From a virus, in the IMG/VR virus record IMGVR_UViG_3300012931_000012, positions 1-37,288 of that record: a DNA stretch of 37,288 nucleotides, one strand, 5' to 3'. The notes beneath the pieces are model-generated. The model saw only the letters and a program-made list of their open reading frames with translations, had not been told where the DNA came from and did not search any database. Shown piece after piece: positions 3,776 through 35,182 of the stretch (the stretch's first letter is position 1; every line of letters begins with the position of its first letter). The translations under genes were made by a program, and so were the position numbers.

Positions 3776-3778
3776 AAC

Positions 3779-3998: not shown

Positions 3999-4038
3999 TT
4001 TTATTTAAAAAAAAAAATAGAAATAGAAGAAAAAAAGC

Positions 4039-4067: not shown

Positions 4068-4085
4068 GTTGGAGAGGTGATACAG

Positions 4086-4429: not shown

Positions 4430-4433
4430 CGGA

Positions 4434-4637
4434 GTGTTAAAAGGGGAAGTCTTAAAAAATAAAGAAAAAATTAAATCTGATATAGAAGATAGAATAACCA
4501 AAAATGGGATGGTTTATATAATATATCATAAAACGAAAACAATAATTAAAAGATATGAAAATCCAATTTATGCATTAGATTTTATCAAAAGAAATTGGAC
4601 AGGGAATTTTTATATTTCAGAAAAAAAATATATATAG
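4434..4637 (+). CDS. Hypothetical small protein, GTG start
   Basis: 67 residues, Lys/Ile-rich: charged N-terminal helix (VLKNKEKIKSDIEDRITKNG), then beta-like segments (MVYIIYHKTKTIIKRY) and YALDFIKRNWTGNFYI. The GTG start has GCGGAG only 2-3 nt away, so the start is uncertain; an ATG in frame lies after KNG. Its 3' end shares TAGCAGGGTAGAAAA with the leaders of family copies A and J, so its last codons may have been replaced when copy D arrived. Confidence 0.5.
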   Translation: MLKGEVLKNKEKIKSDIEDRITKNGMVYIIYHKTKTIIKRYENPIYALDFIKRNWTGNFYISEKKYI

Positions 4638-4649
4638 CAGGGTAGAAAA

Positions 4650-5938: not shown

Positions 5939-6494
5939 AAAATTAAAAAAATTGGGCGCTTGCGATTCTGGGATAGAGTATTTCCAATCTAAGCATTCGG
6001 ACGGCGTAGAACTCACGGATTTAATACGTGAAGATATTAAAACCAATGATTGGACGATACTTGAATACGCTGATTGGCTAATAGCACATTGTATGACATA
6101 TAAACAATGTGTGAATTATGCATTATATGCGGCTGAGTTAGTTTTCCCGGAGTATCAGGAAAAATATCCTAATGACCCCCGTGCGTACAATTGCATACAA
6201 GCAATAAAGGATTTCAGAGACGGTAAAATTACGAGGAAGCAATTGCTGGATGCTGTTGCCGATGCCCATGCTGCTGTCCATGCTGCCTATGCTACCGATG
6301 CTGCCTATGCTGCTGCCTATGCTGCCGCCCATGCTGCTGCCCATGCTGCCTATGCTGCTGTCGATGCTGCCTATGCTGCCCATGATGCTGATGCTGCTGC
6401 CCATGATGCTGCCCATACTGCTGCCGATAAAAATGCGATGATGATTAAAATCTTGCAATCCGGGATTACTTTACTGGAGGTGGGGAATGAATGA
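5922..6494 (+). CDS. Ala-repeat family protein, copy F
   Basis: 190 residues starting MKITVEKLKKLGACDSGIEY. The open frame extends 9 codons further upstream (to 5895), but homology to all other copies and the GGAGGCTGGAA site put the start at 5922. Ala tract of about 60 residues (DAHAAVHAAYATDAAYAAAY onward), then ADKNAMMIKILQSGITLLEVGNE. Third member of the tandem trio D-E-F. The TGA overlaps the next ATG at 6487, for which its TTACTGGAGG codons supply the ribosome site. Confidence 0.9.
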   Translation: MKITVEKLKKLGACDSGIEYFQSKHSDGVELTDLIREDIKTNDWTILEYADWLIAHCMTYKQCVNYALYAAELVFPEYQEKYPNDPRAYNCIQAIKDFRDGKITRKQLLDAVADAHAAVHAAYATDAAYAAAYAAAHAAAHAAYAAVDAAYAAHDADAAAHDAAHTAADKNAMMIKILQSGITLLEVGNE

Positions 6495-9266: not shown

Positions 9267-9557
9267 TTAATCTTCTCCTCCTGTAATTTTTTTTCTATGG
9301 TCTTCGAATACTGGTTCGATCTTTCTCCGACGGTCGACAATTAGCAAGATCGTCTGCAAAAAACTAGTGTTTACCTTTTGCACCTCCTCTATTCCGTAAA
9401 GTCGTTTGTCGAGTTGTGTTATTGTATCAGTAAAAGCCTGTCTTCCTGCTAATGCATCATCTAATTTTTCTTTATTTTCCAAAAGGCTATCAATTTTTTT
9501 TGTGCGTTCTCGTCTTTTTTTAAAGAAAGATATTATCAAATAAATAATTCTATTCAT
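9267..9557 (-). CDS. Small coiled-coil protein with N-terminal hydrophobic segment
   Basis: 96 residues. It opens with a short hydrophobic stretch (MNRIIYLIISFFKKRR), then a long charged helix (KIDSLLENKEKLDDALAGRQ and following LDKRLYGIEEVQKV) and a second hydrophobic patch (FLQTILLIVDRR). It overlaps the upstream gene by 4 nt. The layout is compatible with an inner-membrane lysis accessory, but no family was recognised. Confidence 0.6.
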   Translation of the reverse strand: MNRIIYLIISFFKKRRERTKKIDSLLENKEKLDDALAGRQAFTDTITQLDKRLYGIEEVQKVNTSFLQTILLIVDRRRKIEPVFEDHRKKITGGED

Positions 9558-9781
9558 TCGTCCAACCTCTCTAAAAGATTTTTTATGTCAATATTCAAAA
9601 AATTTGTAAAACTTTTTAACCATTGTCTGCGATCTTTGGGAGAATATGCTTTTGGAAAAGTGAACCATAAGCCTTCTCTGATAGCCTTGCATACTGAATC
9701 TGCCGCATCTCTGCTTGAATCTTGATGTCTATAAAAAAGCATACTAAGCGCATGATCCAATAATATACTTTCTTTTTCCAT
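9554..9781 (-). CDS. Hypothetical small protein
   Basis: 75 residues, predicted helical, no membrane segment: ILLDHALSMLFYRHQDSSRD, AADSVCKAIREGLWFTFPKA, then PKDRRQWLKSFTNFLNIDIK and an acidic tail. Begins about 30 nt after the large ejection-protein gene. Unknown function; late expression is likely from its place in the unit. Confidence 0.6.
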   Translation of the reverse strand: MEKESILLDHALSMLFYRHQDSSRDAADSVCKAIREGLWFTFPKAYSPKDRRQWLKSFTNFLNIDIKNLLERLDE

Positions 9782-9810
9782 TTAAAAAACTCCATGATTT
9801 TACCTACTGA

Positions 9811-12621
9811 TTATTTTATATTCGAGATCTTCCCAATATTTAATATTCCTTTCTTTTTTTTAGGATAATTTCCCTTGATAATATCTTTCGTATTTCCACC
9901 CCGTTGGGAAATGTTATATCTTTTTACTATTTGTCCATATCCGGGGATTCCTCCTAATTTCCCAAGTTCCAATAACCCACCCAGCAGATCTAGATTTTTC
10001 CCTTTGTTTAATTTATCAAGGCTCTTTTCTATAGAATTTATTGCTGAACCTCCGATTGTTTTTCCATATTTAGCACTTCTCACCATAGGATAGATGGAAG
10101 CCATTGCCATTAAAGCATTAAATATAGCCTTAGAGTTGCTGTCTCCTTCAGCTTTCGATTTTTCTATTTCTTTGATAGGATTAGGAAATGCATCCATTCC
10201 AAAACCGTCTTGGTAAATTTTATTTAATAAAGCTGTAGCCACTATATATTTTGTTAGTTTAGAAGGGTTGAATTTATTATTCCCCCCAATTCCCAAAATA
10301 TCTTTCTTGAAATATTGATAATCCGAATTAGCGAAAGTTTGGAAAAGAGTTAATGCTTTCCCGGCTCCTGTTCTAGTTAATGGAGTTCTATCTATTTTAT
10401 TCGCAGATCCCTGTGTCCTTATGACCACATCGTCAGCATAATCAATAGCCTTTTTGGGTAACATTTTGTCTTTTATTGCTTTGCTGTAAGATGCAAGCCA
10501 AGTGGATCTAGCAGATTCTGCATCTAACATTTGTAATGGAGTAACCCCAATTTTCCCAAATTTAGATTTTATTTTCCCAAATTTAGATTTTATTTTCCCG
10601 GACCCATTTAAAGCTTCCTCAATCCCTGTTTCGAAAAAACGGGTGTTGAGAACTGCACTTTTATCAAAAGCAAATTTTCGCCATTCGGGAATTAAATTCA
10701 TCCTTATTCCATTAACTAAATTTTTCAATCCTACTTCGGGATATGTATTGCGTAATGATAAAAATTGTTTTGCAGCACTATCAAAATTAAAAGACAATAC
10801 ACTATAAATCAAATTTTTATTTACTTTTTCAGCTATATTATCAAGCCATTTTAATTTTTTACCACCGATGGAAGTATATACTTTTTTACCAGCAACATCG
10901 TTAATCCATTGGTTTATAGCTTCAAAAGCATATGGGTTTTCATTCATAAGCTTAAAACCCTTCTCTGTCCCATCTTCTAATTTCCGAGTTAAAGCTTGTG
11001 CTTTTGATATCTCTGGAGATAAATAAATATGTTGTAACGCCGAATGGTTATATTTGTTAAAAACATTAAAAGCATCCATTTCCACACCGATATCGTTTTT
11101 TAACCTTTTTTTAGCAAAAGCGAAAGGGGTAGATTTTGGATTGATAAAATCCGAAATAACATCCATTTTAGCGAGAACAGGATTTATGCCTTCTTTATTC
11201 ATCTCCTCCAGATTTTTAAAGAAAGTAAAATAATTATCTACCTTCGGGAATGGGTCTTTACCAGATAATTTTCTAGCTTCCTGCAGGCGGTCATATAAAG
11301 ATTCATATTTTGAACGCATTAAATTATATGCTTCTAATTCTTTATCTGTTAATTCTGGGGCAATCCGTTTCATTTTTGATAATATTTCCTTCCCCCCGGC
11401 CTGTTGCGCAACGGCGTGTTCCATTATTCTTTCGGAAGATTTTTTGGGTAAAGATTTTTTTAATTGCTCTATTTCTTTTTTATCAATTGCATATTCTATA
11501 TTTTTTAAGTGTTCTGCTTTCTGCATCGACCGGTATGTTAAGTCTTTAAAGGATTCCCCGAGTTTATCAATATACCTATTGGACGGTTCAAGCAATCCTT
11601 GCGGCTTTTCCATTAAAGGAAGGTCTTTCATTATATTCATTTCTGCTTCATATACCGGAACAGATTTAGAACCATCTGGAAAAATTTTTTGATGGTTTAC
11701 TATTTTAGTAATTGAACCATAATCACCAATATTTTCTTTTCTATAAATAGCATCACTTAAATTCTTTAAAAGCTTGTTCTCCCCCAACCGATTAACATCA
11801 GGAATGGAATCATTGATTATTACTTGTGCGTCATCCCCCAATCGTTCCGATAACTTATTTATGTATGGTGATATATTTTCTATTTTATTAGATGTTGTTT
11901 TATTCCCCAATAATTTTATAGTAGTTGAATCTAATTTATCTATATCGTTTATTGGTACAGATAAAATATCTTTATAAGTTGGAAGAGACTTAATTTCTTT
12001 AGCTGTTGCAGGTAAAGCGACTTCAGATATAGTGGGAATTTCTTTTTTTAATATATCTTCGGACACAGTTTCTCCCAAAATCCCTGCCAACTTCCTTCCT
12101 CCAATATTTTCTATTCCTTTGGATGCGATCTTTCCGGATATTTTCCCAACGCCCCTTACTGCTAGTTTCCCTAATCCATACCCCAAAGACATCAAATCTG
12201 TTGGGTCTTCTAGAGTGTCCTGCAGGGTTTGCTGCCCGTACATTGCTTTATTGCGTTCTTCTCCCTTTGGCATATTCTCAATACGTTTCCATTTTTCTGA
12301 ATCACTTTCGGAATCATTAAAGATATTATATAAATTTTCTGCTGTATTTAAAGCTTCTCCAACAACAGGAACATTGTGTAATTGTGTTCCTATCCCCTGC
12401 CATATTTTTTTAGGAATTTCAGATTTAGGAGAACTTGATTTAAAAACATCAGGTTCCATATTTTCAGTATCTTTATAAAAATCATTTTTTGCACGCTCTA
12501 TATATTCGGGTTCCAATTGTGGTGTAATAACCTCATTAAAGTATTGGTCACGAATTTCTTTTTTCTTTTCTGGAGACTGTGCTTTATATTGATCTTCTGA
12601 TATAACTTCTGACCATTTCAT
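9811..12621 (-). CDS. Large ejection/internal virion protein
   Basis: 936 residues. N-terminal MKWSEVISEDQYKAQSPEKK, then IRDQYFNEVITPQL and EYIERAKNDFYKD, is the charged helical opening often seen in podoviral internal proteins that leave the capsid with the DNA. Long charged helices fill the middle and the C-terminal quarter is Gly/Lys-rich. It contains a tandem KSKFGKI-KSKFGKI repeat. With the next two genes it occupies the place of the P22 ejection trio (gp7, gp20, gp16) downstream of the tail genes. No lysozyme or transglycosylase motif was seen. Confidence 0.7.
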   Translation of the reverse strand: MKWSEVISEDQYKAQSPEKKKEIRDQYFNEVITPQLEPEYIERAKNDFYKDTENMEPDVFKSSSPKSEIPKKIWQGIGTQLHNVPVVGEALNTAENLYNIFNDSESDSEKWKRIENMPKGEERNKAMYGQQTLQDTLEDPTDLMSLGYGLGKLAVRGVGKISGKIASKGIENIGGRKLAGILGETVSEDILKKEIPTISEVALPATAKEIKSLPTYKDILSVPINDIDKLDSTTIKLLGNKTTSNKIENISPYINKLSERLGDDAQVIINDSIPDVNRLGENKLLKNLSDAIYRKENIGDYGSITKIVNHQKIFPDGSKSVPVYEAEMNIMKDLPLMEKPQGLLEPSNRYIDKLGESFKDLTYRSMQKAEHLKNIEYAIDKKEIEQLKKSLPKKSSERIMEHAVAQQAGGKEILSKMKRIAPELTDKELEAYNLMRSKYESLYDRLQEARKLSGKDPFPKVDNYFTFFKNLEEMNKEGINPVLAKMDVISDFINPKSTPFAFAKKRLKNDIGVEMDAFNVFNKYNHSALQHIYLSPEISKAQALTRKLEDGTEKGFKLMNENPYAFEAINQWINDVAGKKVYTSIGGKKLKWLDNIAEKVNKNLIYSVLSFNFDSAAKQFLSLRNTYPEVGLKNLVNGIRMNLIPEWRKFAFDKSAVLNTRFFETGIEEALNGSGKIKSKFGKIKSKFGKIGVTPLQMLDAESARSTWLASYSKAIKDKMLPKKAIDYADDVVIRTQGSANKIDRTPLTRTGAGKALTLFQTFANSDYQYFKKDILGIGGNNKFNPSKLTKYIVATALLNKIYQDGFGMDAFPNPIKEIEKSKAEGDSNSKAIFNALMAMASIYPMVRSAKYGKTIGGSAINSIEKSLDKLNKGKNLDLLGGLLELGKLGGIPGYGQIVKRYNISQRGGNTKDIIKGNYPKKKKGILNIGKISNIK
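10551..10592 (-). repeat. 21-bp tandem duplication in the ejection-protein gene
   Basis: Two adjacent copies of a 21-nt unit (TTTTCCCAAATTTAGATTTTA on +) and a partial third encode KSKFGKI twice in frame. The reading frame is kept, so this is a simple in-frame expansion. Confidence 0.85.
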
Positions 12622-12625
12622 TTAA

Positions 12626-13678
12626 TTACCATGGTTTTTTATATTCTTTGGCACTAGAAGATTTCCCGACTTTTTTGTTTTCTTTTTTCGGAGGTTCTTC
12701 TTTCTTAAAAATAACCTTTGGTGGATTTTCTCCTCCAGTTAAAGAATTAAATATTCTTTTTGGGAAAGACGGTTGCTCTGGTTTTTCGGCTGATATTCCG
12801 GACTGTTCTAACCCCAATTGTGCGGCTTCCGGGTTCGAGTCATATAGTCCGGCAAGTTTAGCTTGTGATACTCCGGCGGATGCATTTTTTGAAGGGATAG
12901 AAGAGACGTCTTCTGCTTTCGATTCCACTACTTCATCTCCATTATTCATCCACTTTAAAGCGTCAGAATAAGTTCCGCTTTCTTTCGTCCTTTTGTTATA
13001 ATATATTTTAGGTTGTGCATTTCCTGAGCGACTTATTTTCTGTAATTGTCTTGCTTGATATTCTTTTACCCAAGCAGGATCAATGGATCTTAAATCTTCT
13101 AACATTTTTTCCCTTGCAGCTATTACCTGTCTTGTGCTATCATCAACATAATCCTTTTTTTCTATAATAGGATCTGTTTTTAACAATGCATCTTTTATCT
13201 GAACGGCATAGTCTTGGTCATACGAAGATTGTTGAGCTTGTGCTAAATTTAATTTCTGACGAATAGCTTTCCCGGCAGGGCTGTCGTCTCCACCTACTCT
13301 ATAAATTAAAGCTTTAAAGTCAGCATCAGAAGGATTACTTTTTCCGGTTATATTCTGTAAACTTTTCAAAGCATCATCAATATTTATATTACTTAAGTTT
13401 TGGATAACAGCTTTCCCAACTTCCGTTTTAGGGGAAAGCGATTTTAGTACTTCTCGTTGTAAATCTAATGGTAAATCCTTATTATCCTTTAAGGACTTTT
13501 GCATCAAAGAAAGATCGTCTAATTCGGGAGTGGCTAATTCTGCCGGATTTATAGACTGTCTTTGTGGCATAGTCAGAGAAATATTGGTTTTTTTAGTGGG
13601 ACTAAAACCGGGATTTAAACCATTCCAAGCATTTTGGTTTGTAGGGAAGTTTATTCCTACCATATAATCGCCTAACAT
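12626..13678 (-). CDS. Probable ejection/minor virion protein
   Basis: 350 residues, Ser/Lys/Gln-rich and low in aromatics, with disordered-looking ends: NQNAWNGLNPGFSPTKKTN near the start and KKEEPPKKENKKVGKSSSAK at the end. The central part is helical (LQREVLKSLSPKTEVGKAVI). It starts in TAATG with the gene upstream; a second ATG five codons on is an alternative start. Sits between the 250-residue and 936-residue virion proteins as a likely member of the DNA-ejection set. Confidence 0.6.
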   Translation of the reverse strand: MLGDYMVGINFPTNQNAWNGLNPGFSPTKKTNISLTMPQRQSINPAELATPELDDLSLMQKSLKDNKDLPLDLQREVLKSLSPKTEVGKAVIQNLSNINIDDALKSLQNITGKSNPSDADFKALIYRVGGDDSPAGKAIRQKLNLAQAQQSSYDQDYAVQIKDALLKTDPIIEKKDYVDDSTRQVIAAREKMLEDLRSIDPAWVKEYQARQLQKISRSGNAQPKIYYNKRTKESGTYSDALKWMNNGDEVVESKAEDVSSIPSKNASAGVSQAKLAGLYDSNPEAAQLGLEQSGISAEKPEQPSFPKRIFNSLTGGENPPKVIFKKEEPPKKENKKVGKSSSAKEYKKPW

Positions 13679-14430
13679 TATTTACTCCTGCTTTTTGCGG
13701 CTTCGACTGCATATTTCCCCTGTGTGTCCGCTATTTTATTGCCATATATCCCATTTACTACGGATGTGGCAAGATTTGTACCCAGACCAAATAAATTTCC
13801 GGCATTGGTAACATCGTTCTGATATCCTGCCATATTATAATTAGAGTATGGTCTCATTGCATTTTCCGCCGCTCCAGTTAAGGTCTGATAATTATTCATT
13901 AAACCGCTGTTGCTTCTTATCTGATTACCTATCATTACATTTTGCGCACCAGTATTTATTTGGTTCTGTTGTTCATTACTCTTTATTTCATCCCATCTTT
14001 TATTCGCAGCATTTATTTTCTGTATCCCGATAGTATCACCGGCTTTGGCATTCGCAAGGTTAGTCCCGTATATGCCGCTTTGCCCCTGCAAATTTTTAAA
14101 TTCATCCTGTTGTTGGTTCTTCAGGGATTCCGACAATGGCAGAGTCCCATTAAGAGCCTGTTGGTATCGGGTTAAGGAGCTTTTATAAATCTTGTCCTGA
14201 TCCTTCATTTCTTGAGTGGTTCGTGGATCGTCCTGCCATTGCTGATCTGTCATTTTATTCCATGTCCCATCAGATCCAATACTATAGTGATTTTGATGTG
14301 CAAATTCAGACATCATATTCCCTTGATATTGTTTATACTGTTGGGCTATTTGTTTTTCTTCCGCCGACATTGAAGGCGCTTCCGGTTTAGTCCCGGCAAC
14401 CTGGCCAATCCCTGTTAATAATCCTGACAT
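13678..14430 (-). CDS. Probable ejection/minor virion protein
   Basis: 250 residues, very rich in Gln, Asn and Gly (EEKQIAQQYKQYQGNMMSEF, RSNSGLMNNYQTLTG), ending in a Gly/Ala-rich hydrophobic stretch (FGLGTNLATSVVNGIYGNKI) and a basic tail. Such composition is common for podoviral ejection proteins that must cross the envelope. The stop overlaps the next gene, and its start abuts the acetyltransferase-like gene stop. Confidence 0.6.
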   Translation of the reverse strand: MSGLLTGIGQVAGTKPEAPSMSAEEKQIAQQYKQYQGNMMSEFAHQNHYSIGSDGTWNKMTDQQWQDDPRTTQEMKDQDKIYKSSLTRYQQALNGTLPLSESLKNQQQDEFKNLQGQSGIYGTNLANAKAGDTIGIQKINAANKRWDEIKSNEQQNQINTGAQNVMIGNQIRSNSGLMNNYQTLTGAAENAMRPYSNYNMAGYQNDVTNAGNLFGLGTNLATSVVNGIYGNKIADTQGKYAVEAAKSRSK

Positions 14431-14819
14431 TATTTTACCTCTACTAAATAACTAGAGTATCCCTTATCTTCCGAATATGGTTTTTTCTTAAATTTATATT
14501 CGATTAGTTTTTTTAAATATTCTTTATTTACAATTATAATAGTATATTTAAAATCTTTAATCAAGTTTGTATAATAATTTATTAAACATAATGCATTTTT
14601 TATATTTCTAAATTCAGGTTTAATAAATAGATGTCTCAAAGATGGAATTTCTTGTTCGATTATAAAATGGAAAAATCCCATTATTTTTTCATCATTTTTC
14701 ATCACATATGTATTGCAAGGAAGCATATTATTTAACTCCATAGTATATCCTTCAATAACCATATTATTGTTTAATTCCTCTATTTCTTCTCCGGTTAATT
14801 GATTTATAAATATGCACAT
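14430..14819 (-). CDS. GNAT-like acetyltransferase
   Basis: About 129 residues from the chosen start MCIFINQLTGEEIEELNNNM. The frame is open to 14906, but those codons are inside the tail gene, and starting at 14819 gives a 16-nt overlap like other gene joints here. The motif order fits the GNAT fold: YVMKNDEKIMGFFHF (strands 2-3), LRHLFIKPEFRN (strand 4 before the acetyl-CoA loop), then ALCLINYYTNLIK (helix) and YTIIIVN (strand 5). The usual Q/RxxGxG/A loop is not clear, so binding of acetyl-CoA is uncertain. Similar genes lie among virion genes of some podoviruses. Confidence 0.6.
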   Translation of the reverse strand: MCIFINQLTGEEIEELNNNMVIEGYTMELNNMLPCNTYVMKNDEKIMGFFHFIIEQEIPSLRHLFIKPEFRNIKNALCLINYYTNLIKDFKYTIIIVNKEYLKKLIEYKFKKKPYSEDKGYSSYLVEVK

Positions 14820-15733
14820 ATCGCCGTAAGTAAATAAGGAGTATGGGCTCCCCAAATATTGATTGTATATACATCGGAAGTAGACAATTTTTGGGTAGCT
14901 GCCCAAAATTTTGTCATTGCGGTAAGTGTTATTTCCGTATCTATATTTAATGAATATGGGGTTCGCCCAGTGTCATAATATAACATAAAAGGCAAAAATT
15001 TGCCTAATTTCGGATAAACAGAAAAATCACAAGCCAAGATTCTATTGGAAGTTGTTACCTCCGAAACAGTTGCAGCAGCAACTATTCCGATATATCCCTG
15101 ACCGCCGGAAGAGGTAGAAGCCCAAAAAGAAAATTCTCCCTTCGCAAGTATTCTCCACTTTCCTATCCCTAGAACTGTATTTAAAATAGGATAATTATAA
15201 CCATAATTGCTATATGTACCCGTAGGGATAGTATAATTTGCATCACTGGAATACGTTCTCTCTATACTCCAGATACTGGAATCTTGCCAAGGAAAATCAG
15301 TTGGTCTATAGCACATCGCATATTTTGGAGAAGTTATTGTCGAACTTGTAAGCAGATAACTGGTTCCACAAAATATCGTAATCTGTGTGGCTGACCCCGA
15401 ATATGTTCCGATTTCCACAATTATGGCATATTTAGTAGTGGAGTCTTGAACATATTTTATCTTTTGCCCTACGGTAAGAACTGCGGTTACATCTGCATTT
15501 ATGCTTATAACACCGGTATAAGTAGAATAAGTAGAATCAACGGACGCATAAGTCCATGCGTTAGATTCCTCCATCCACTCAAGATCAGTTAGACTTACAT
15601 TATCGGAATTTACTAAAGATAGGATCTGCGATGCTGTAAGTTTTTTTGTAACTCCACTTTGCATACAAAGTAAAGTGTCTGTATTGGCAGGGGTAGACAC
15701 CGCCGCATAATCTGTTATTATTTTATTGGACAT
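14804..15733 (-). CDS. Tail appendage/fiber protein
   Basis: 309 residues, rich in Thr, Ser, Tyr and beta-strand patterns. The N-terminus has the short attachment-like segment seen in phage appendage proteins (DYAAVSTPANTDTLLCMQSG, then KKLTASQILSLV), followed by repeated strands around YSTYTGVISINADVTAV, ending in a compact C-terminal domain (YTINIWGAHTPYLLTAICAYL in parts). Directly downstream of the tail-hub gene with no gap. Likely a fiber or needle-tip component; receptor role is inferred. Confidence 0.65.
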   Translation of the reverse strand: MSNKIITDYAAVSTPANTDTLLCMQSGVTKKLTASQILSLVNSDNVSLTDLEWMEESNAWTYASVDSTYSTYTGVISINADVTAVLTVGQKIKYVQDSTTKYAIIVEIGTYSGSATQITIFCGTSYLLTSSTITSPKYAMCYRPTDFPWQDSSIWSIERTYSSDANYTIPTGTYSNYGYNYPILNTVLGIGKWRILAKGEFSFWASTSSGGQGYIGIVAAATVSEVTTSNRILACDFSVYPKLGKFLPFMLYYDTGRTPYSLNIDTEITLTAMTKFWAATQKLSTSDVYTINIWGAHTPYLLTAICAYL

Positions 15734-18499
15734 TTAAGCCCCTCCTAAATTATCATGATCAAATAAAAATTGAGAAAGAAAATAATCTTTTCCATCAGAA
15801 CTAGTAAATTTTATTTGTATTCTTTGTCCCGTTGCCCCGATATAAAGACAATAATTTTTAATTAAATCTTGCGCCGCCGCCATTGTCAAAGTTTGCGACC
15901 CTAAGGATCTGCCATCTATATAAATTTCAAAAGTCAGAGTTTCTGTTCCTTTTGCTTTTAAAACAGCCCATAATTTATCATAAATTTTTTCACTTCTTAT
16001 ATCTTCAAAACTTATGGGGGAAGTAGTAAAACTGGATTCGTAAATTTCCCCATCGTCGGTCAATAAATCGGATTCCAATTTTAGAATATTCCCATTATCA
16101 TCACCAATATAAATAGACTGTTGGGATTCGGATTCTCTAATAAAATTACCTATCGTTAAATTTATTGCATAGGTATGTTTCGACCAAGTTCCTTTATCAA
16201 TAAAATATACTAAACATGCAGTAGGATAAGTATTGCCGTTGAGTACAACAAAAATTTTAATAGCTCTAATATTGGAATCATACATCATGAAAAAATTATC
16301 AAGTTTAGCAAGGTCAACATTTTCTTGTACCCAAGTATTTATATACTTTGGTTTAGTAATCGACCCAATTTCAAAATCACCATATTTTTGAGTAGTGGAA
16401 ATAGAATAAACATTCCCTTCGGGAGCCATGACAATTACATCATTTGGGGTTTTACATACTAACCGTTGGGATGCGGCTCCTCCAGACCATATAGCTTTAG
16501 TGACTCCCCATCCAGTAGTATCATCACTGGTATCATCAACTATATAAGCTTGATCTTTGCTGAAAACTATTAAATTTCCTCCATATTCAACACAGGCAGT
16601 TATCTTATCAGTTAGTATATTTATAATAGTAACATTTGTATCTGAAAAATCAGCAAGATTATTTAATGAAGCATATAGTCTACTAGGGTAACTAGGGACT
16701 CCATAAGCCCATAATCTTTTTGATGTTCCTCGTCCATGTGCTAAAAAATATTTAGGATAACTTTCGTACCAATCTGTTGGTAAAAAAGCTAAATTTTTAG
16801 TTTCAGGTTCGTCACCAAGGCTTGCATCTGCTATATTATCAAGATAAGATGTTGTTGTATTATCGGATAATGTGGCGAGAAATTTAAAAGTTGAGGAATT
16901 CGCCGCAGTTCTATATATTTTTCTGGAAGTTGTTCCATCATCCCCAATGGGGATATTAGTTAATTGTGTCTCTGAACAAGCTGTTGTATTAGTAACGGCA
17001 TCCGATACTGATCCAATTGTAGATTCTCCGCTTGCAGTGACATATGTAATGGCATAATAATGGTCTCCAGCAGTAACAAGTCCTCCGGTTACTGTAACTA
17101 ATGCTACCGTTGGTTTAGATGGGCATCCCATATCAATAGCGTACCCCAAAGATCCATCCCATACAATAGGCATATCTTTCCCATTGGATATATATAATTT
17201 ACTTAGAAAATTTTCAAAAAAACAAATTTCATCATATTTTAAAGTTTTAATTAAAGTGTTATAATTTTGGTATACTGATCCATTTTCCATGCAAGCTATC
17301 ATGTCCGCCCCTTCGGATACAATATAATTTCCCAATTCATCTACTATATAATTATCATTTTCGTCTATTAGATATGCTCCATTTATTTCTCCATTTAATC
17401 TTAAAAACTGGGAAATACCTTCTATGTTATTTTTTCCAATAGAAATTTTTAATGCATTATATCCGGCATAATTAAAACAAGCAAAAATATTCCCCCCGTA
17501 TTGTAAATTCCCGCAAGAAAAGGAATATGTCGTTTCATCGATATCCCATGTATATCCGTCTATGGATGTAGCTATCAATAAATATCCGTCATCATTTATC
17601 CCCAATAATACAAAAGTTCCATCTCCATAAGTTATATACCTCCAACCATCTCCGGATATCCCGGGTGTTGGTAATGCCAATATTTTGGTTGTCCAAGATA
17701 CTCCTAAATCAGTACTATACATTATTCTAAAATCAAAAGTCCCGACAATTATAAATATTCCATTTCCGTAAGTACAACTATTGGGATCGCTAATTACAGC
17801 ACTAGTAGAATATGTTGTAGTCGCCCATGTTATACCATCAAGACTTCGAGAAATATAAACATTAGTACTAAGCCACCCAACAGCTATAAATACTCCCCCT
17901 CCCCAAGCAACACTATTACAATTAGCAGTGCTAACTGCGACCCAAGTCAAAAGATCAGTGGAATATCTTATTCCGCTAGTAGAAACAATAACATATTTGG
18001 ATTCAGCATATACCCCCGAAACAGCAGTAAATGTTCCTATATTTACCGTTGCCCATGTTAACCCGTCATCTGTACTATATATAATATAATTTGGAAATAG
18101 AATAACAAAATTAGAGTTCCCATAAAAAGCCCCCGAACACACTAAAGCTCCTATTGTAGAACTTATTATTATAGATGCCCAAGTGTCTCCTCCGTCGGGT
18201 GATCTAAAAATAGTACCAGTAGTCCCTCCTGCGGATAAGGAAATAGCGATGATTGTCCCATTGTCACTTATTGCAGAATAACCAAATGTAGTGGTTCCGT
18301 TTGGAGTTATTAAATTTACATTATTATATGTATTTGGCAAAGTACCTTTTTTCTCGCATCCGCCTCTAGGCTGTATAGCCCCGTTGTGCAAATTTATATT
18401 ATCTATTTCAATGAAATCTGTATTATCGACAACATCATAATCGGGGTTTGCGTCCCATCCACCTTTTAGGGGTAATCTATAGGTCTTCCCAGTGTACAT
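15734..18499 (-). CDS. gp10-like tail hub protein with inserted Asp-box propeller
   Basis: 921 residues, about twice the length of P22 gp10. The N-terminus (YRLPLKGGWDANPDYDVVDN, then NINLHNGAIQPRGG) is the usual opening of podoviral tail-hub/packaged-DNA stabilisation proteins. Residues about 99-320 carry six Asp-box-like motifs (for example SPDGGDTW, STDDGLTW, SLDGITW, SIDGYTW), typical of sialidase-type beta-propellers, so a sugar-binding or structural propeller seems inserted. After YLIDENDNYIVDELGNY comes a fibronectin-like segment, then the hub core with WAYGVPSYPSRLYAS. Follows the gp4-like gene without a gap, as in P22. Confidence 0.75.
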   Translation of the reverse strand: MYTGKTYRLPLKGGWDANPDYDVVDNTDFIEIDNINLHNGAIQPRGGCEKKGTLPNTYNNVNLITPNGTTTFGYSAISDNGTIIAISLSAGGTTGTIFRSPDGGDTWASIIISSTIGALVCSGAFYGNSNFVILFPNYIIYSTDDGLTWATVNIGTFTAVSGVYAESKYVIVSTSGIRYSTDLLTWVAVSTANCNSVAWGGGVFIAVGWLSTNVYISRSLDGITWATTTYSTSAVISDPNSCTYGNGIFIIVGTFDFRIMYSTDLGVSWTTKILALPTPGISGDGWRYITYGDGTFVLLGINDDGYLLIATSIDGYTWDIDETTYSFSCGNLQYGGNIFACFNYAGYNALKISIGKNNIEGISQFLRLNGEINGAYLIDENDNYIVDELGNYIVSEGADMIACMENGSVYQNYNTLIKTLKYDEICFFENFLSKLYISNGKDMPIVWDGSLGYAIDMGCPSKPTVALVTVTGGLVTAGDHYYAITYVTASGESTIGSVSDAVTNTTACSETQLTNIPIGDDGTTSRKIYRTAANSSTFKFLATLSDNTTTSYLDNIADASLGDEPETKNLAFLPTDWYESYPKYFLAHGRGTSKRLWAYGVPSYPSRLYASLNNLADFSDTNVTIINILTDKITACVEYGGNLIVFSKDQAYIVDDTSDDTTGWGVTKAIWSGGAASQRLVCKTPNDVIVMAPEGNVYSISTTQKYGDFEIGSITKPKYINTWVQENVDLAKLDNFFMMYDSNIRAIKIFVVLNGNTYPTACLVYFIDKGTWSKHTYAINLTIGNFIRESESQQSIYIGDDNGNILKLESDLLTDDGEIYESSFTTSPISFEDIRSEKIYDKLWAVLKAKGTETLTFEIYIDGRSLGSQTLTMAAAQDLIKNYCLYIGATGQRIQIKFTSSDGKDYFLSQFLFDHDNLGGA

Positions 18500-19161
18500 T
18501 ATTTACACCTTAATATTGCTGTATCTATTTCCATAATTGGTACAATATTGGTATTTCTTGTTTCAATAATAGATTTTAAATTAACAGCTTGCTGTATAAC
18601 AGTGCGGGGAAGTTCGACCCCATATTCCGGAGCTATATCCACCGCAAGATTATAGATCATTGCTTTTTCGTATTCGATAGGCTGGAGTATTGTATCAGTG
18701 GTATAAATATATCCAGTAAAAGTTTTTTTACTCGTTAGAACTAGAGTATAAGAATCCTCTGGAATTGAATCAAAATATATATAAGCCAATGTATTACTTG
18801 CGTTATAAAAAAATCTAAGTGGTCTTGCAACATTAGTTTTATCACTTATCTTATTATAGTCCTCAATGGACATTTGTGTATTTATTGGATAACTTTGTCC
18901 GTCTGAAGAAAGTAAATATGCGCTTATTATATTTAATGGCCTTGCGGTATCAAAGTCACCTCCAGATCCAATAGAATACGAGGCTGTCCCTGCAGTAATA
19001 TCGAAAGATTCTGTTACAACGTAGTTTATTAAACTTTCTTCCCATGACATTATCATGTGATTTAAGGACAATAAAGCTTCATCCATTCTGGAAGCGTTAC
19101 TTGTATCTCTAATCCTGCAAAGACGCATTGCGCTTGTTACTATTTCATTAACTGTTGACAT
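18499..19161 (-). CDS. Head-to-tail connector, P22 gp4-like
   Basis: 220 residues. The helical N-terminus (VNEIVTSAMRLCRIRDTSNA, then DEALLSLNHMIMSW) and the middle strands (SFDITAGTASYSIGSGGDFD, ARPLNIISAYL) are characteristic of the P22 tail accessory factor gp4 family, which forms a dodecamer under the portal. The C-terminal part EKAMIYNLAVDIAPEYGVEL fits the connecting helices. P22 gp4 has muramidase activity in addition; that is not assumed here. Overlaps the glycosyltransferase-like gene by 14 nt. Confidence 0.85.
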   Translation of the reverse strand: MSTVNEIVTSAMRLCRIRDTSNASRMDEALLSLNHMIMSWEESLINYVVTESFDITAGTASYSIGSGGDFDTARPLNIISAYLLSSDGQSYPINTQMSIEDYNKISDKTNVARPLRFFYNASNTLAYIYFDSIPEDSYTLVLTSKKTFTGYIYTTDTILQPIEYEKAMIYNLAVDIAPEYGVELPRTVIQQAVNLKSIIETRNTNIVPIMEIDTAILRCK

Positions 19162-19816
19162 CTACTGTCCTCGACATTAAGTAGTTATGATAATTCCCCG
19201 AATATTCTTTTACTGCATAATGAGAAAAATTTATATCAGGAACAGACCATATTTTTTTACCCATATCTAAAAATCTTTTTAAAAAATATATATCTTCTCC
19301 ATACCATTTATTATCATTGAATCGCATTCCTGTATCAAAAAAATGGTACATCCCATCATTATCTGGATTCATTTTATAATATTCTATTGTATCCATAAAA
19401 ACACTTCTTTTAATTCTCATAAATCCAGTAGTTGTCATATCGACAGAAATTAACCCAGTTTCTTCGTCTTTGCAATTATCATTCTCATCGTAAATCAAAT
19501 TTACTGGGAAATCTAAAGGATCTCTTTTGTAAGGGTATATCCCAGTTACTATTTCCCTATCATGTTTTAATAATTTATAGATAGAATCATTGTCAAATTT
19601 TAAATCAGCATCTATAAAAATTAAATCTGTACAATCTGTTTCTAAGAATAATTTAACTGCCATATCTCTCGCAAGATCAATATAAGCCCCACTATTAAAA
19701 AGTGGAGTTATCGTATAACCTTTGTTTACTAAATCGATACTATTTTTAATTAAAGATTCAGCACATCCAGAAAATATCATATGGTTGTAAGGTAATACTG
19801 CAATAAATAAATTCAT
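19148..19816 (-). CDS. Glycosyltransferase-like protein (GT-A fold)
   Basis: 222 residues. FIAVLPYNHMIFSG opens a GT-A-like Rossmann domain, ARDMAVKLFLETDCTDLIF precedes the metal-binding DAD (69-71), and IVTGIYPYKRDP, MTTTGFMRIKRSVF and WYGEDIYFLKRF follow in the order seen in phage GT-A proteins, the last being the usual acceptor-side GED motif. Such genes lie in virion cassettes of many phages and may glycosylate a virion protein or host surface. It lies between the short decoration-like gene and the connector. Confidence 0.75.
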   Translation of the reverse strand: MNLFIAVLPYNHMIFSGCAESLIKNSIDLVNKGYTITPLFNSGAYIDLARDMAVKLFLETDCTDLIFIDADLKFDNDSIYKLLKHDREIVTGIYPYKRDPLDFPVNLIYDENDNCKDEETGLISVDMTTTGFMRIKRSVFMDTIEYYKMNPDNDGMYHFFDTGMRFNDNKWYGEDIYFLKRFLDMGKKIWSVPDINFSHYAVKEYSGNYHNYLMSRTVDVNS

Positions 19817-31095: not shown

Positions 31096-31422
31096 ATGAT
31101 TAACATCAATGCAAAAACAAAATCAATAACAACCGAGATCAACGGAGTTGCCTACACGGCAACCTATAAAAGTTCAGAAAAATTTTTACGAGCCATTAGC
31201 AAAATTCAGCGCTCAGAAAAGCCGGGAACTTGCAACCTGTCTCTGGTCGGATTAGAGGTTGATGCTGCCCATGCTGCTGCCCATGCTGCTGCCGATGCTG
31301 CTGCCTATGCTGCTGCCGATGCTGCTGCCGATAAAAATGCAACGATAATTAAAATCCTACAATCCGGTATTACTTTGCTGGAGGGGGAAATGAGATATTT
31401 TAAAAAAGGAGAAAAAAAATGA
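31096..31422 (+). CDS. Ala-repeat family chimera (unrelated N-terminus), copy H
   Basis: 108 residues. Residues 1-53 (MININAKTKSITTEINGVAY and following TATYKSSEKFLRAISK) do not resemble the family N-terminus and look like a small beta-rich protein of its own. After GLEV a clean Ala tract begins (DAAHAAAHAAADAAAYAAAD) and the family C-terminus follows (DKNATIIKILQSGITLLEGE). The tail MRYFKKGEKK resembles the start of the MKRYYKK genes at 32966 and 34333. So it is a fusion made of three pieces, placed first behind the early promoter. Overlaps copy G by 4 nt. Confidence 0.88.
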   Translation: MININAKTKSITTEINGVAYTATYKSSEKFLRAISKIQRSEKPGTCNLSLVGLEVDAAHAAAHAAADAAAYAAADAAADKNATIIKILQSGITLLEGEMRYFKKGEKK

Positions 31423-31847
31423 AAATAACGGTTGAAAAATTAAAAGGATTAAGCGCTTGCAATTCCGGAATAGAATATTTTGGATCTAAGCATTCAGACG
31501 GCGTAGAACTTACGGATTTAATACGTGAAGATATCGAAACCAGGGACTGGCGAATACTCGAGTATGCTAATTGGCTAATAGTACATTGTATGACATATAA
31601 ACAACTTACAGATTATGCATTATGTATGGCTGAATTAATTTTGCCAGAGTGCGAAAAAGAATATCCTTACGACTGCCGTTTACGCATTTACACACAAATG
31701 ATAAGGGATTTTAAAGACGAGAAATTTACGAGGGAGCAATTACTGGTTGCTGCCCATGTTGTTCTCTATTATAGCGATTTTTTTAAGGCAATAATGATTA
31801 AAATCCTACAATACGGCGTTACTCTGCTGGAGGTGAAAAATGAATAA
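31419..31847 (+). CDS. Ala-repeat family protein, copy G (tract lost)
   Basis: 142 residues: MKITVEKLKGLSACNSGIEY, conserved region to about residue 108, then AAHVVLYYSDFFK instead of repeats, then AIMIKILQYGVTLLEVKNE. An 86-nt block from codon 13 is identical to copy A (31455.. and 37059..), so they exchanged sequence recently. Start overlaps the chimera and its end overlaps the next ATG at 31840. Confidence 0.9.
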   Translation: MKITVEKLKGLSACNSGIEYFGSKHSDGVELTDLIREDIETRDWRILEYANWLIVHCMTYKQLTDYALCMAELILPECEKEYPYDCRLRIYTQMIRDFKDEKFTREQLLVAAHVVLYYSDFFKAIMIKILQYGVTLLEVKNE

Positions 31848-32019
31848 TATAATAACGAAAGCAATTGTTAAAAAAACGCCAGCTGGGTATCAGGGTAAAC
31901 TTTTTTGCAATGGGAAAAAAATTTTAACATCTTTTTACGAGTCCAAAAGAACGGCACTCATGCAGACAGAATATGCCGGGCGACAAATTGACCCTCATTT
32001 TTGCATTAAAATGAGGTGA
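31840..32019 (+). CDS. Hypothetical small basic protein
   Basis: 59 residues: MNNIITKAIVKKTPAGYQGK, LFCNGKKILTSFYESKRTAL, MQTEYAGRQIDPHFCIKMR. Looks like a small beta-beta-alpha fold (KxTPAGYQGKLFCNGK..TSFYESKRTALMQTEY), common in short phage proteins of unknown role. Ribosome site CTGGAGGTG, supplied by copy G; it overlaps that gene by 8 nt. Confidence 0.65.
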   Translation: MNNIITKAIVKKTPAGYQGKLFCNGKKILTSFYESKRTALMQTEYAGRQIDPHFCIKMR

Positions 32020-32023
32020 GAAT

Positions 32024-32113
32024 ATGAGAAATTTTTTCAAACTTTTTTTATTTTTTATCGGAATAATTGTAGCCGCTATTATAATGGCAATTGTTTGGTT
32101 GTTTAAAAAATAA
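32024..32113 (+). CDS. 29-residue one-TM peptide
   Basis: MRNFFKLFLFFIGIIVAAII followed by MAIVWLFKK. A single membrane segment flanked by basic residues. GAGGTGAG lies just before the ATG. Its TAA (32111..32113) directly touches the ribozyme. Such peptides may be membrane toxins, lysis regulators or superinfection factors; no evidence for a choice. Confidence 0.55.
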   Translation: MRNFFKLFLFFIGIIVAAIIMAIVWLFKK

Positions 32114-32165
32114 GTCCGAAACGGCCTCTGGGCCGTCTATCGGTTAAGCCGGTACTGATGAGGAT
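32114..32165 (+). ncRNA. Type II hammerhead ribozyme
   Basis: All core elements are present in the order expected of a type II (stem II open) hammerhead. Stem II 3' strand GUCC (32114..32117); GAAA (118..121); stem III CGGCC/GGCCG with loop UCUG (122..135), extended by the A15.1-U16.1 pair; GUC cleavage site with C at 32137; stem I UAUCGG/CCGGUA with loop UUAAG (138..154); CUGAUGA (155..161); stem II 5' strand GGAU (162..165). Every conserved core position is intact. Cleavage after 32137 would leave a 43-nt 5'-OH leader before the ATG at 32181. Confidence 0.93.
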
Positions 32166-32180
32166 GAGGAAGGGGAAAAT

Positions 32181-32687
32181 ATGAAATATATATTATATCT
32201 GGCAATATTACTAAGCGGTTGCGATAATTATATTACTGTTGAGAGCTTATACAACTATAATTTTATCAATGATATTGTTGTCAACAATATTGATGATGCC
32301 GCTAAGTATGTTGCTTGTATCCCCTACAAGCGAGACAGTTGGGAGTATTGGCAGACTCCGGAGGAGACTTATCGGCTACAGGCTGGCGACTGCGAAGACC
32401 ATGCAATTATGTTTGCCTATCTATGCGACCAATTGGGGATTGTTAATATTAACATAGTAATTGTTAAGACAATATCAGGGGCATATCACACTATCAATTA
32501 TATTGGCAATAATTTTTACGACCCCCTTATATACGAGTATTGCCCAAATGATAGTACCGTTTATAGTGCATATCAATTGACGGCCGATGATTTAAGCTAT
32601 TATGAGATATTATATATAATTCCATACGCGGAAGCTATTTGGATGGCGGTAAATTGGCATTCCGCAGTCGGAGAATATGAATTTTAA
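32181..32687 (+). CDS. Transglutaminase-like cysteine protease/lipoprotein
   Basis: 168 residues. An N-terminal signal with lipobox (ILYLAILLSGC, Cys14) suggests a lipoprotein. The core has QAGDCEDHAIMFAYLCDQLG with nucleophile C71, AYHTINYI with H103 and FYDPLIYE with D114, the Cys-His-Asp order of the transglutaminase/bacterial-cysteine-protease-like family. It would act in the periplasm or outer surface, perhaps on wall peptides or envelope proteins. Strong AGGAAGGGG site directly after a hammerhead ribozyme; no gene lies between them. Confidence 0.8.
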   Translation: MKYILYLAILLSGCDNYITVESLYNYNFINDIVVNNIDDAAKYVACIPYKRDSWEYWQTPEETYRLQAGDCEDHAIMFAYLCDQLGIVNINIVIVKTISGAYHTINYIGNNFYDPLIYEYCPNDSTVYSAYQLTADDLSYYEILYIIPYAEAIWMAVNWHSAVGEYEF

Positions 32688-32699
32688 AAAAGGAGAAAA

Positions 32700-32969
32700 A
32701 TGAAAATAACAGTTAAAAAATTAAAAGAATTGGGCACTTACGATTCCGGTATTGAGTATTTTGAGTCCAAGCATTCCGGGAGCGTAGAACTTACAAATAC
32801 TGTTGCCAAAGTAGCCTATGCCATCGCTAATACTGCCTATGCTACCAATGCAGTCTATTTTGCCTCCTATGCTGTCGCCGATGCTTTTGCCGATAAAAAT
32901 GCGATGATGATTAAAACCCTGCAATATGGGATTACTTTACTAAAAACAAAAAAAGGAGAAAAAAAATGA
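32700..32969 (+). CDS. Ala-repeat family protein, copy I (internal deletion)
   Basis: 89 residues. Residues 1-32 match the family (MKITVKKLKELGTYDSGIEY, ESKHSGSVELT). The next about 75 residues, which carry DLIREDI to LLDA in other copies, are missing: the frame goes straight to a degenerate tract (NTVAKVAYAIANTAYATNAV) and then FADKNAMMIKTLQYGITLL. The end was altered to KTKKGEKK with AAAGGAG. A deletion that keeps frame between the N-terminal start and the variable tract. Probably non-functional in the usual sense, or a short variant. Confidence 0.85.
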   Translation: MKITVKKLKELGTYDSGIEYFESKHSGSVELTNTVAKVAYAIANTAYATNAVYFASYAVADAFADKNAMMIKTLQYGITLLKTKKGEKK

Positions 32970-33148
32970 AAAGATATTATAAAAAAGTCCCAAAGGTAGG
33001 GGGGTCTTGTCTTATATGTGATTTATATTGGGTCGAAATAAAAAAAAATCATCATGATGAGGAATGTATGGAATGTAAGCCGGGATTTTATTACAAGGAA
33101 ATAACAGAGCAGGAATATAAAATAAGGAAAAGGGGGATAAAAAAATGA
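32966..33148 (+). CDS. Small Cys-rich protein, duplicated (paralog of 34333)
   Basis: 60 residues: MKRYYKKVPKVGGSCLICDL, YWVEIKKNHHDEECMECKPG, FYYKEITEQEYKIRKRGIKK. SCLIC and ECMEC give a four-Cys zinc site. The C-terminal YKEITEQEYKIRKR is almost identical to that of its paralog at 34333..34533. ATGA overlap with copy I. Confidence 0.75.
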   Translation: MKRYYKKVPKVGGSCLICDLYWVEIKKNHHDEECMECKPGFYYKEITEQEYKIRKRGIKK

Positions 33149-33306
33149 ACATATCGCCAATAATATTTCTTATCATAGTTGCTCTTTTGATGGGGAGTTG
33201 CATAAGAAGATTGGTTATACTTATAATCTTGATAATTACAATAATAAGGAGCAAAAATAAATGAAAAAGATTTTCGTAATAATATTTTTAGTATTAGTAA
33301 CTCCAG
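33108..33306 (+). repeat. Segmental duplication, left copy (mate 34493..34691)
   Basis: Near-identical sequence runs from the end of the Cys-rich gene through the one-TM gene to the signal peptide of the ClpP-like gene, ending exactly at ACTCCAG (33306 / 34691). Beyond it the two copies diverge completely. This left copy is joined to the leader of family copy J. Confidence 0.85.
33145..33264 (+). CDS. 39-residue one-TM protein, duplicated (paralog of 34530)
   Basis: MNISPIIFLIIVALLMGSCI followed by RRLVILIILIITIIRSKNK. Two hydrophobic stretches split by CIRR. Paralog of 34530..34649, same length and frame. Overlaps its upstream neighbour by 4 nt and downstream ATG of the clpP stub by 4 nt. 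Confidence 0.65.
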   Translation: MNISPIIFLIIVALLMGSCIRRLVILIILIITIIRSKNK

Positions 33307-33332
33307 TTATTATGAAAAATTTAGCAGGGTAG
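33261..33332 (+). pseudogene. Stub of a second ClpP-like gene (signal peptide only)
   Basis: The frame begins MKKIFVIIFLVLVTP, identical to the start of the intact ClpP-like gene at 34646, then changes at ACTCCAG to VIMKNLAG and TAG. The foreign part (33307..33336) matches 28 of 30 nt of the sequence upstream of family copy A (36993..37022), which is the 3' end of the replisome-organizer gene. The remnant is therefore a broken paralog interrupted by incoming sequence. Confidence 0.85.
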
Positions 33333-33336
33333 AAAA

Positions 33337-33822
33337 ATGAAAATAACAGTTGAAAAATTGAAAGAACTAAACGCTTGCAATTCCGGAATAGAATATTTTG
33401 GATCTAAGCATTCAGACGGCGTAGAACTTACGGATTTGATCCGTGAAGATATCGGGACTAATAATTGGACGATACTTGAATACGCTGATTGGTTAATGGT
33501 GCATTGTATGACATGTGAGCAGCGTACAGATTATATTATATATGTGACTGAATTAGGACTTCCGAAGTATAAAGAAAAGTACCCCGATAACCCCCGTATA
33601 CATAATTGCATACAGGCGATAAAGGATTTTAGAGATGGGAAAATTATGAAGAAAGAATTATTAGATATTACCTATGCTGCCGTCTATGTTGTCAATGCCG
33701 CCTATACTGTCGCCGATGTTGTCGCCGATAAAAATGCGATGATGATTAAAATCCTACAATACGGGATTACTTTACTGGAGGTAAAAAAAAATGGAAGTAT
33801 CAGAGATGAGACACTTATGTAA
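33337..33822 (+). CDS. Ala-repeat family protein, copy J (mosaic)
   Basis: 161 residues: MKITVEKLKELNACNSGIEY, conserved region to FRDGKIMKKELL, degenerate tract (DITYAAVYVVNAAYTVADVV), then ADKNAMMIKILQYGITLLEVKKNG and an unrelated run-on (SIRDETLM) into the next gene. Segments are exact copies of other loci: 65 nt with A and G from 33373, 54 nt with E (33439..33492), 28 nt with D (33484..33511). A recent product of recombination among copies, with 30 nt of flank from the A locus. Confidence 0.88.
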   Translation: MKITVEKLKELNACNSGIEYFGSKHSDGVELTDLIREDIGTNNWTILEYADWLMVHCMTCEQRTDYIIYVTELGLPKYKEKYPDNPRIHNCIQAIKDFRDGKIMKKELLDITYAAVYVVNAAYTVADVVADKNAMMIKILQYGITLLEVKKNGSIRDETLM

Positions 33823-34164: not shown

Positions 34165-34336
34165 GCAATGTTGTGTATGTCGCCGGGTCAAAATCGGAGA
34201 AGAATTTCCAAACGCTATTTGGGTCGATAGTAAGATAATGGGATTTTTATTGCCTAATGATATTACACACGGATATTGCCCGGAATGTTATAAGGTAGCA
34301 TTGTCTGAAATAATTATTTCTGGAGAAAAAAAATGA
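34157..34336 (+). CDS. Zinc-finger protein, HGxCPxC type
   Basis: 59 residues from ATG 34157 behind GGAGGATATCA; the frame is open further upstream but the homologous-looking part starts here. MIEQCCVCRRVKIGEEFPNA and DITHGYCPECYKVALSEI form a CxxC...HGYCPEC four-Cys knuckle similar to zinc fingers found at the end of some signalling proteins (THGICPEC). It overlaps the neighbours by 8 and 4 nt. Confidence 0.7.
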   Translation: MIEQCCVCRRVKIGEEFPNAIWVDSKIMGFLLPNDITHGYCPECYKVALSEIIISGEKK

Positions 34337-34533
34337 AAAGATATTACAGAAAAGTCCTGGGAGAATACGGTACCTGTCTTATAAAAAATAAAGAATTTGA
34401 AATATGTGACTTATATTGGATTAGAAAAAAAAATTTCCCAAATATGGGTTGTGTAGAATGCGAACCCGAGTCTTGCTATAAGGAAATTACAGAGCAGGAA
34501 TATAAAATAAGAAAAAGGAGGATAAAAAAATGA
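34333..34533 (+). CDS. Small Cys-rich protein, duplicated (paralog of 32966)
   Basis: 66 residues: MKRYYRKVLGEYGTCLIKNK, EFEICDLYWIRKKNFPNMGC, VECEPESCYKEITEQEYKIR. Same gene as 32966..33148 with an insertion near residue 16 and a shifted Cys arrangement. Starts in ATGA behind TTTCTGGAGAAAA and is followed by the paralogous membrane peptide. Confidence 0.75.
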   Translation: MKRYYRKVLGEYGTCLIKNKEFEICDLYWIRKKNFPNMGCVECEPESCYKEITEQEYKIRKRRIKK

Positions 34534-34691
34534 CCATATCGCCAATAATATTTTTTGTTATAATTACTCTCTTTATAGGGGATTGTATAAGAAGATTAAT
34601 TGCGCTTATAATCTTAATAATTACAATAATAAGGAGCAAAAATAAATGAAAAAGATTTTCGTAATAATATTTTTAGTATTAGTAACTCCAG
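34493..34691 (+). repeat. Segmental duplication, right copy (mate 33108..33306)
   Basis: Intact counterpart of the left copy. After the shared boundary ACTCCAG it continues into a complete ClpP-like gene. Confidence 0.85.
34530..34649 (+). CDS. 39-residue one-TM protein, duplicated (paralog of 33145)
   Basis: MTISPIIFFVIITLFIGDCI followed by RRLIALIILIITIIRSKNK. One or two membrane passes. Its last bases (AAGGAGCAAAAATAAATGA) supply ribosome site and overlapping start of the ClpP-like gene. Confidence 0.65.
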   Translation: MTISPIIFFVIITLFIGDCIRRLIALIILIITIIRSKNK

Positions 34692-35182
34692 TGCTTGCGG
34701 AGGATATTTTTAAAACATCCCAAGAAAATGATAAAACAACATACACGGTTTTTCTGGACGGGGATATAGCTCTTCCCGCAGTATATAGAGATATAATTTT
34801 GACTCTTAACACGGCCAAAGAATCAGATACATTTGTTTTTATCATAAACACCCACGGTGGGATGGCCGACAGTTGTTTTGCAATTTGTAATGCAATCAAA
34901 AAAACCAAAGCAAATACAATAGCTGATCTATACACTGGATATTCCGCAGGGGCTTTTATCGCTTTATCCTGCGGGGAAATTAAAATTAACCCCAATACCA
35001 CAATGATGTTGCACGGGATGCAGGGAGGGAATGGAGAAGGATCAATATCCCAATTATTTACAAGAGCAGATTTTTTTAATCGTCTGAATAAAGAAGTTAT
35101 TTTATATTTTTGTAAAAATTTCTTGACGGAATTTGAAATTAACAAACTATTATCAGGCGAGGAAATCTGGTTAACTAGTTAA
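34646..35182 (+). CDS. Exported ClpP/S14-like serine protease
   Basis: 178 residues. An N-terminal signal peptide (MKKIFVIIFLVLVTPVLA, cleavage after LA likely) is unusual for a ClpP-fold protein. The core shows the fold order: FVFIINTHGG (oxyanion strand, 63-72), LYTGYSAGAFIALSCG with nucleophile S100, and TTMMLHGMQGG with H123, then RADFFNRLNKEV and a helical tail. No ATPase partner gene was seen; in the periplasm it would act as a stand-alone protease on short or unfolded substrates, or process envelope proteins. Its duplicated sibling at 33261 is broken. Confidence 0.82.
   Translation: MKKIFVIIFLVLVTPVLAEDIFKTSQENDKTTYTVFLDGDIALPAVYRDIILTLNTAKESDTFVFIINTHGGMADSCFAICNAIKKTKANTIADLYTGYSAGAFIALSCGEIKINPNTTMMLHGMQGGNGEGSISQLFTRADFFNRLNKEVILYFCKNFLTEFEINKLLSGEEIWLTS

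Follow-up and report, generated by a model that had tools for sequence, protein, structure and literature searches.

Type II hammerhead ribozymes, their frequency in phages and prophages and a pseudoknot between loop I and the 3′ tail, which is present in the majority of type II members without being universal, were described by Perreault et al. 2011 (PMC3088659). Prophage hammerheads that occur in multiples flank single genes or short gene blocks, and processing of long phage RNA was proposed (PMC3088659). In the haloviruses HF1/HF2, the hammerhead HHphage is intergenic and lies upstream of a helicase gene, and a message 5′ end maps within 3 nt of the hammerhead site. The phage-derived triple hammerhead at ardA of Agrobacterium tumefaciens is located between phage-derived operon genes, is active in vitro and cleaves in vivo once cloned in E. 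coli (PMC3088659).

The window, meaning the whole stretch of DNA analysed here, comprises 37,288 nucleotides (positions 1 to 37,288 of IMGVR_UViG_3300012931_000012) of a linear IMG/VR phage genome. The hammerhead at 32114–32165 on its plus strand is a genuine further example of the type II phage hammerheads already described, as the sequence-only reading had noted. It resembles the Rfam type II family RF02276 in permutation, core, three stems, GUC cut site and phage setting. However, the majority of RF02276 is pseudoknotted, whereas the window ribozyme has no pseudoknot; its loop measures 5 nt and its stem II 4 bp, and its score lies only just above the cut-off of the model. Like HHphage, it is positioned shortly before an early operon gene; the HF1/HF2 element has a variant core and belongs to hypersaline viruses, while the core in the window is standard. 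At ardA, several ribozymes surround one gene, whereas the window has one ribozyme.

Identity and fold of the window ribozyme

The sequence of 32114–32165 contains every part of a type II hammerhead ribozyme, for which self-cleavage is predicted. The elements follow one another in the order stem II, GAA, stem III hairpin, GUC, stem I hairpin, CUGAUGA and stem II. The features of the locus, all on the plus strand, are as follows.

32024..32113, plus strand: ORF of a 29-codon transmembrane peptide (MRNFFKLFLFFIGIIVAAIIMAIVWLFKK), preceded by the ribosome site GAGGTGA and ending with TAA at 32111–32113
32113, plus strand: A directly 5′ of stem II, coming from the TAA stop codon
32114..32117, plus strand: 5′ strand of stem II, GUCC, pairing with GGAU at 32162–32165 with one G-U
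32118..32120, plus strand: core GAA (G12 A13 A14), from sequence and covariance model
32121..32136, plus strand: stem III hairpin ACGGCC-UCUG-GGCCGU (−10.2 kcal/mol), predicted to form the 3′ end of the upstream product
32137, plus strand: cleavage-site nucleotide C17, with the cut predicted at 32137/32138 from homology to the hammerhead core
32138..32154, plus strand: stem I hairpin UAUCGG-UUAAG-CCGGUA with one U-G; the loop matches the subclass consensus G-UNANG-C
32155..32161, plus strand: core CUGAUGA, from sequence and covariance model
32162..32165, plus strand: 3′ strand of stem II, GGAU, from sequence, covariation in relatives and covariance model
32138..32180, plus strand: predicted 43-nt 5′-OH leader of the downstream message, read from the sequence
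32166–32175, plus strand: purine-rich ribosome site GAGGAAGGGG within the predicted leader
32181..32687, plus strand: 168-aa lipoprotein with lipobox LLSGC and a transglutaminase/LapG-like cysteine-peptidase motif (GDCEDHA, YHTIN, FYDP)

The invariant parts of the hammerhead core (CUGANGA, GAA and a UH cleavage triplet) were all found, as CUGAUGA at 32155–32161, GAA at 32118–32120 and GUC at 32135–32137. The type II topology was evident from the loops that close stems I and III and from the open end of stem II. Stem II pairs G32114-U32165, U32115-A32164, C32116-G32163 and C32117-G32162. Stem III extends from A32121-U32136 to C32126-G32131 around the loop UCUG, and stem I from U32138-A32154 to G32143-C32149 around the loop UUAAG. 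Altogether, 16 of 16 pairs were standard, two of them G-U. Coordinates, strand and permuted order were as first read from the sequence.

The covariance search that the sequence-only reading had named as a check returned RF02276 with 37.3 bits against a gathering cut-off of 37 (E 3.4e-4 with all Rfam models); in a single-genome search with RF02276, the E-value was 8.2e-8. A covariance model of the short-loop subclass described below (class A), trained on 29 other phage ribozymes of that class with the window left out, scored the element with 61.5 bits; in this search of 395 kb, the E-value was 3.5e-14. The core pattern did not occur in any of 100 dinucleotide shuffles of the window. A second hammerhead was not found in the window even at relaxed thresholds, and no stretch was complementary between loop I and the 3′ tail that could form the pseudoknot. 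The minimum-energy fold of the 52 nt was the three-stem hammerhead (−18.3 kcal/mol) with a shifted stem I loop. Stem II is weak, with one G-U among its 4 bp, and was absent from the minimum-energy structure of the 91-nt context.

The gene boundary was assessed by a stop codon at the ribozyme 5′ end and a ribosome site at most about 40 nt from the 3′ end. In the window, the flanking genes lie on the sense strand of the ribozyme, the TAA of the 29-codon ORF ends at 32113 and directly abuts stem II, and the ribosome site is followed by the next ATG at 32181. The contact between the peptide stop codon and the ribozyme was as first noticed, as was the length of 43 nt for the leader (32138–32180) expected from a cut after 32137. 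The description of the downstream product as a transglutaminase-like lipoprotein held for the lipobox and the ribosome site, whereas the family assignment is remote: the transglutaminase-like Pfam match was below cut-off, and similarity to the LapG-type cysteine protease chain 4u65 had an E-value of 3e-4. An AlphaFold model of the lipoprotein was of low confidence (mean pLDDT 52), and its fold matches were dismissed as meaningless. No relatives of the lipoprotein were found among the viral contigs and phage records searched.

The phage and its relatives

The minus strand of the genome encodes a head-and-tail module with a P22-like portal, and the plus strand encodes early genes including an ERF recombinase and a replisome organiser. 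Phages related by their terminase (37–67% identity) have structural genes in common with the window but not the ribozyme region. Neither hammerheads nor other Rfam families scored above cut-off in these phages, and the class A model gave no match; three weak matches of 15–21 bits were rejected. The lipoprotein gene is absent from them, as is the ribozyme, and no conserved copy was found in the relatives. The window ribozyme sits within fast-changing accessory DNA.

Other features of the window include repeated sequences. At least eight paralogues starting with MKITVEKLKEL...GIEYF.SKH are encoded at 1371–6494 and 31419–33822, several of them with long low-complexity tails of Ala-Tyr/His/Asp. 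They show only weak similarity to phrog_38757 and a Methanosarcina virus protein. This family adjoins the lipoprotein gene, and an HMM search did not find it near the ribozymes of other phages. The regions 32966–33336 and 34333–35182 appear to be a segmental duplication of early genes and hold two MKRYY[KR]KV... paralogues. The early region also encodes, at 34646–35182 and not adjacent to the capsid genes, a ClpP/NfeD-like serine protease that appears to carry a signal peptide, and a truncated copy of the start of this gene (MKKIFVIIFLVLVTPVIMKNLAG) lies at about 33261–33332. Another short ORF, at 33145–33264, likewise encodes an N-terminus that resembles a lipobox (MNISPIIFLIIVALLMGSC...).

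Two classes of type II hammerheads

Viral contigs were scanned with a pattern of 18 fixed bases, which returned at least 120 stretches. All three stems were formed by 118 of the 151 matches listed, the window included, although the pattern itself demanded only two stem III pairs. The 118 listed type II sites were split into class A with 48 members, among them the window ribozyme, and class B with 70. Class A typically combines a 5-nt loop (UNANG, closed by G-C) with a 4-bp stem II and lacks the pseudoknot. In class B, the stem I loop is long and able to pair with the tail that follows stem II, and stem II itself is mostly 2–3 bp long. Among the matches listed, at least four pairs between loop I and tail were possible in 63 of 70 class B sites but in 0 of 48 class A sites. 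The window ribozyme thus belongs to the short-loop, pseudoknot-free subclass. It shares with class B the permutation, the A before stem II, the stop contact and the downstream ribosome site; it differs in loop, tail pairing and stem II length and in being single-copy, whereas class B forms arrays, for example with 24 copies on one contig. On the 3′ side of stem II, the next base is G in the window and A in 72% of the subclass.

The class A alignment had a covariation score of 0.90 compared with 0.18 after shuffling, and the stem columns of the window ribozyme covary among 10 relatives of equal length; the 100% pairing of the stems is partly by construction because members were selected for having stems. 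Of 35 sites that the class A model found in five phages, RF02276 passed only 3. The Rfam type II model therefore misses most of class A, and phage hammerhead counts based on RF02276 are too low. On an unrelated phage contig (L192, 3347–3400, minus strand), a class A hammerhead was found that departs from the window ribozyme at one base within the 24 nt of stem I and core strand.

Stop codons at type II sites

The stop codon of a sense ORF was located within 3 nt of the ribozyme 5′ end at 95 of the 118 listed type II sites (81%), compared with 4% of random positions. This count considered only sense ORFs of at least 30 codons, and the window, with an ORF of 29 codons, was therefore scored as a miss. 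In a disjoint set with the core CUGACGA, contact was found at 51 of the 76 matches listed. Covariance models applied to six phages gave a nearby stop at 53 of 59 ribozymes, with offsets from −5 to +3. The base before stem II was A in about 90% of both classes among the matches listed; of the 18 sites that lack an abutting stop, 16 had it too. Since the A is kept even there, it looks like a base of the ribozyme that the stop codon supplies. Stops that end exactly before stem II were UAA or UGA in 28 of 28 cases, and those overlapping it by one base were mostly UAG (20 of 26), again among the matches listed.

On the other side of the ribozyme, a ribosome site and start codon followed type II ribozymes at a median distance of 23 nt among the matches listed. 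The distance of 15 nt to the start codon in the window is near the usual one. Gaps with a ribozyme had a median of 83 nt among the matches listed, versus 26 nt for other gaps of the same contigs. In searches of whole records, the highest number of type II hammerheads per contig was found in IMGVR_UViG_3300017605_000570 (9500–19500), with 24 in about 7.6 kb. Nearly every interval of this array holds a single small gene, which begins no more than about 20 nt from one ribozyme and runs up to the next.

Comparison of permutations

Equally strict patterns were used for the three permutations. Among the matches listed, stop contact was seen at 81% of type II sites, compared with about 50% for type I and about 3% for type III. 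The upstream product ends in a hairpin of the ribozyme itself for types I and II, but not for type III, where the stop lies about 23 nt upstream among the matches listed. At the listed type III loci, 51 of 59 spacers between stop and cut had a hairpin of −5 kcal/mol or lower (median z −3.2), in a test that was devised after the spacing had been seen. The control, 30 bases behind ordinary stops of the same contigs, reached this value in 33% of cases (z +0.3). The median of the spacers was −14.9 kcal/mol versus −7.6 kcal/mol after shuffling, and 39 of 46 were at −5 kcal/mol or lower after removal of similar spacers. A second viral set showed 10 of 11 type III spacers at −5 kcal/mol or lower, but this sample was small and its z-scores were weak; bacterial genomes yielded just 4 usable spacers.

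Leaders behind type I ribozymes were unstructured, with a median MFE of 0 among the matches listed. The idea that a hairpin is needed on both products was rejected for the downstream 5′ end on account of these leaders. Together, unstructured type I leaders and the hairpin in type III spacers suggest that the upstream 3′ end is the thing being made. At about 24 of 90 listed type I sites, the stop ended 6–10 nt inside the ribozyme; such internal stops are probably the UGA of the catalytic CUGAUGA.

Proposed function and alternatives

Bacterial exonucleases stall at 3′ hairpins, and 5′-OH ends escape 5′-monophosphate-dependent decay. The polycistronic RNA of the window would cut itself after C32137 during transcription. 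The message of the peptide would then end 24 nt past its stop codon, with the GC-rich stem III hairpin and a 2′,3′-cyclic phosphate, and the lipoprotein message would begin with a 5′-OH, followed by the stem I hairpin and a ribosome site of its own. We consider it probable, at roughly 0.6, that the window ribozyme serves to cap the 3′ end of the upstream mRNA with a hairpin right behind the stop and so to separate the fates of the two cistrons. A stable, hairpin-capped 3′ end and cistron separation, rather than ligand-controlled regulation of the lipoprotein, would be the main selected effect. A broader reading, which we hold more tentatively and at slightly less than even odds, is that hammerheads of phage operons are makers of mRNA 3′ ends behind stop codons, with a hairpin of their own in types I and II or a separate one in type III; some operons would be punctuated gene by gene, and the window would be a single-copy case.

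The sequence-only reading had placed the ribozyme in the service of one specific gene, which it would insulate or regulate. General separation of two cistrons remains the best reading; specificity for the lipoprotein gene is not supported. Under such specific control, the leader would be trimmed or freed and translation or stability raised or lowered, and both the start codon at near the usual distance and the defined 43-nt leader left by the cut would suit it. It is nevertheless unlikely, as no family is common to the genes that follow 91 phage type II hammerheads, nearly every small gene in the array phage has a ribozyme, type I leaders lack structure and nothing indicates that the leader sequesters the ribosome site. 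The tight constraint is on the upstream stop and not on the identity of the downstream gene. Genome compaction alone could also push ribozymes against stop codons. The stop touching stem II at most type II sites could further point to a regulated ribozyme, in which a ligand, a protein or ribosomes switch cleavage, for example when a terminating ribosome, which would cover the 5′ strand, masks stem II. We regard such a switch as improbable: loops of 4 and 5 nt in the short-loop subclass leave no room for an aptamer, and masking by ribosomes would be expected for almost every member and would postpone cleavage without deciding whether it occurs.

That the element is an inactive sequence, resembling a hammerhead by chance or left over from a decayed one, is very doubtful. 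In vitro, 4 of 18 hammerheads matching the consensus failed (PMC3088659), but the core bases and pairs of the window ribozyme are all intact, its 61.5 bits lie within the range of class members, and its placement against stop codon and ribosome site is that of the active-looking arrays. Hammerhead arrays in some phages would also be compatible with a ligation or circular-RNA pathway like that of viroids and retrozymes, in which the unit between two ribozymes is excised. This pathway is the least credible here, since a single hammerhead in the window leaves no unit to excise, and neither spliced nor circular products were seen by Perreault and colleagues (PMC3088659).

In the literature searched, the coverage of which was incomplete, we found no description of stop contact or of how it differs between permutations, nor of the hairpin in type III spacers or of gene-by-gene arrays of such size. 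The reason for hammerheads in phages and bacteria has been a standing question since 2011. Stop contact, together with its dependence on permutation and the type III hairpin, narrows the broad notion of RNA processing to a specific question that is cheap to test, namely whether the ribozyme matters because it caps the 3′ end of the upstream message.
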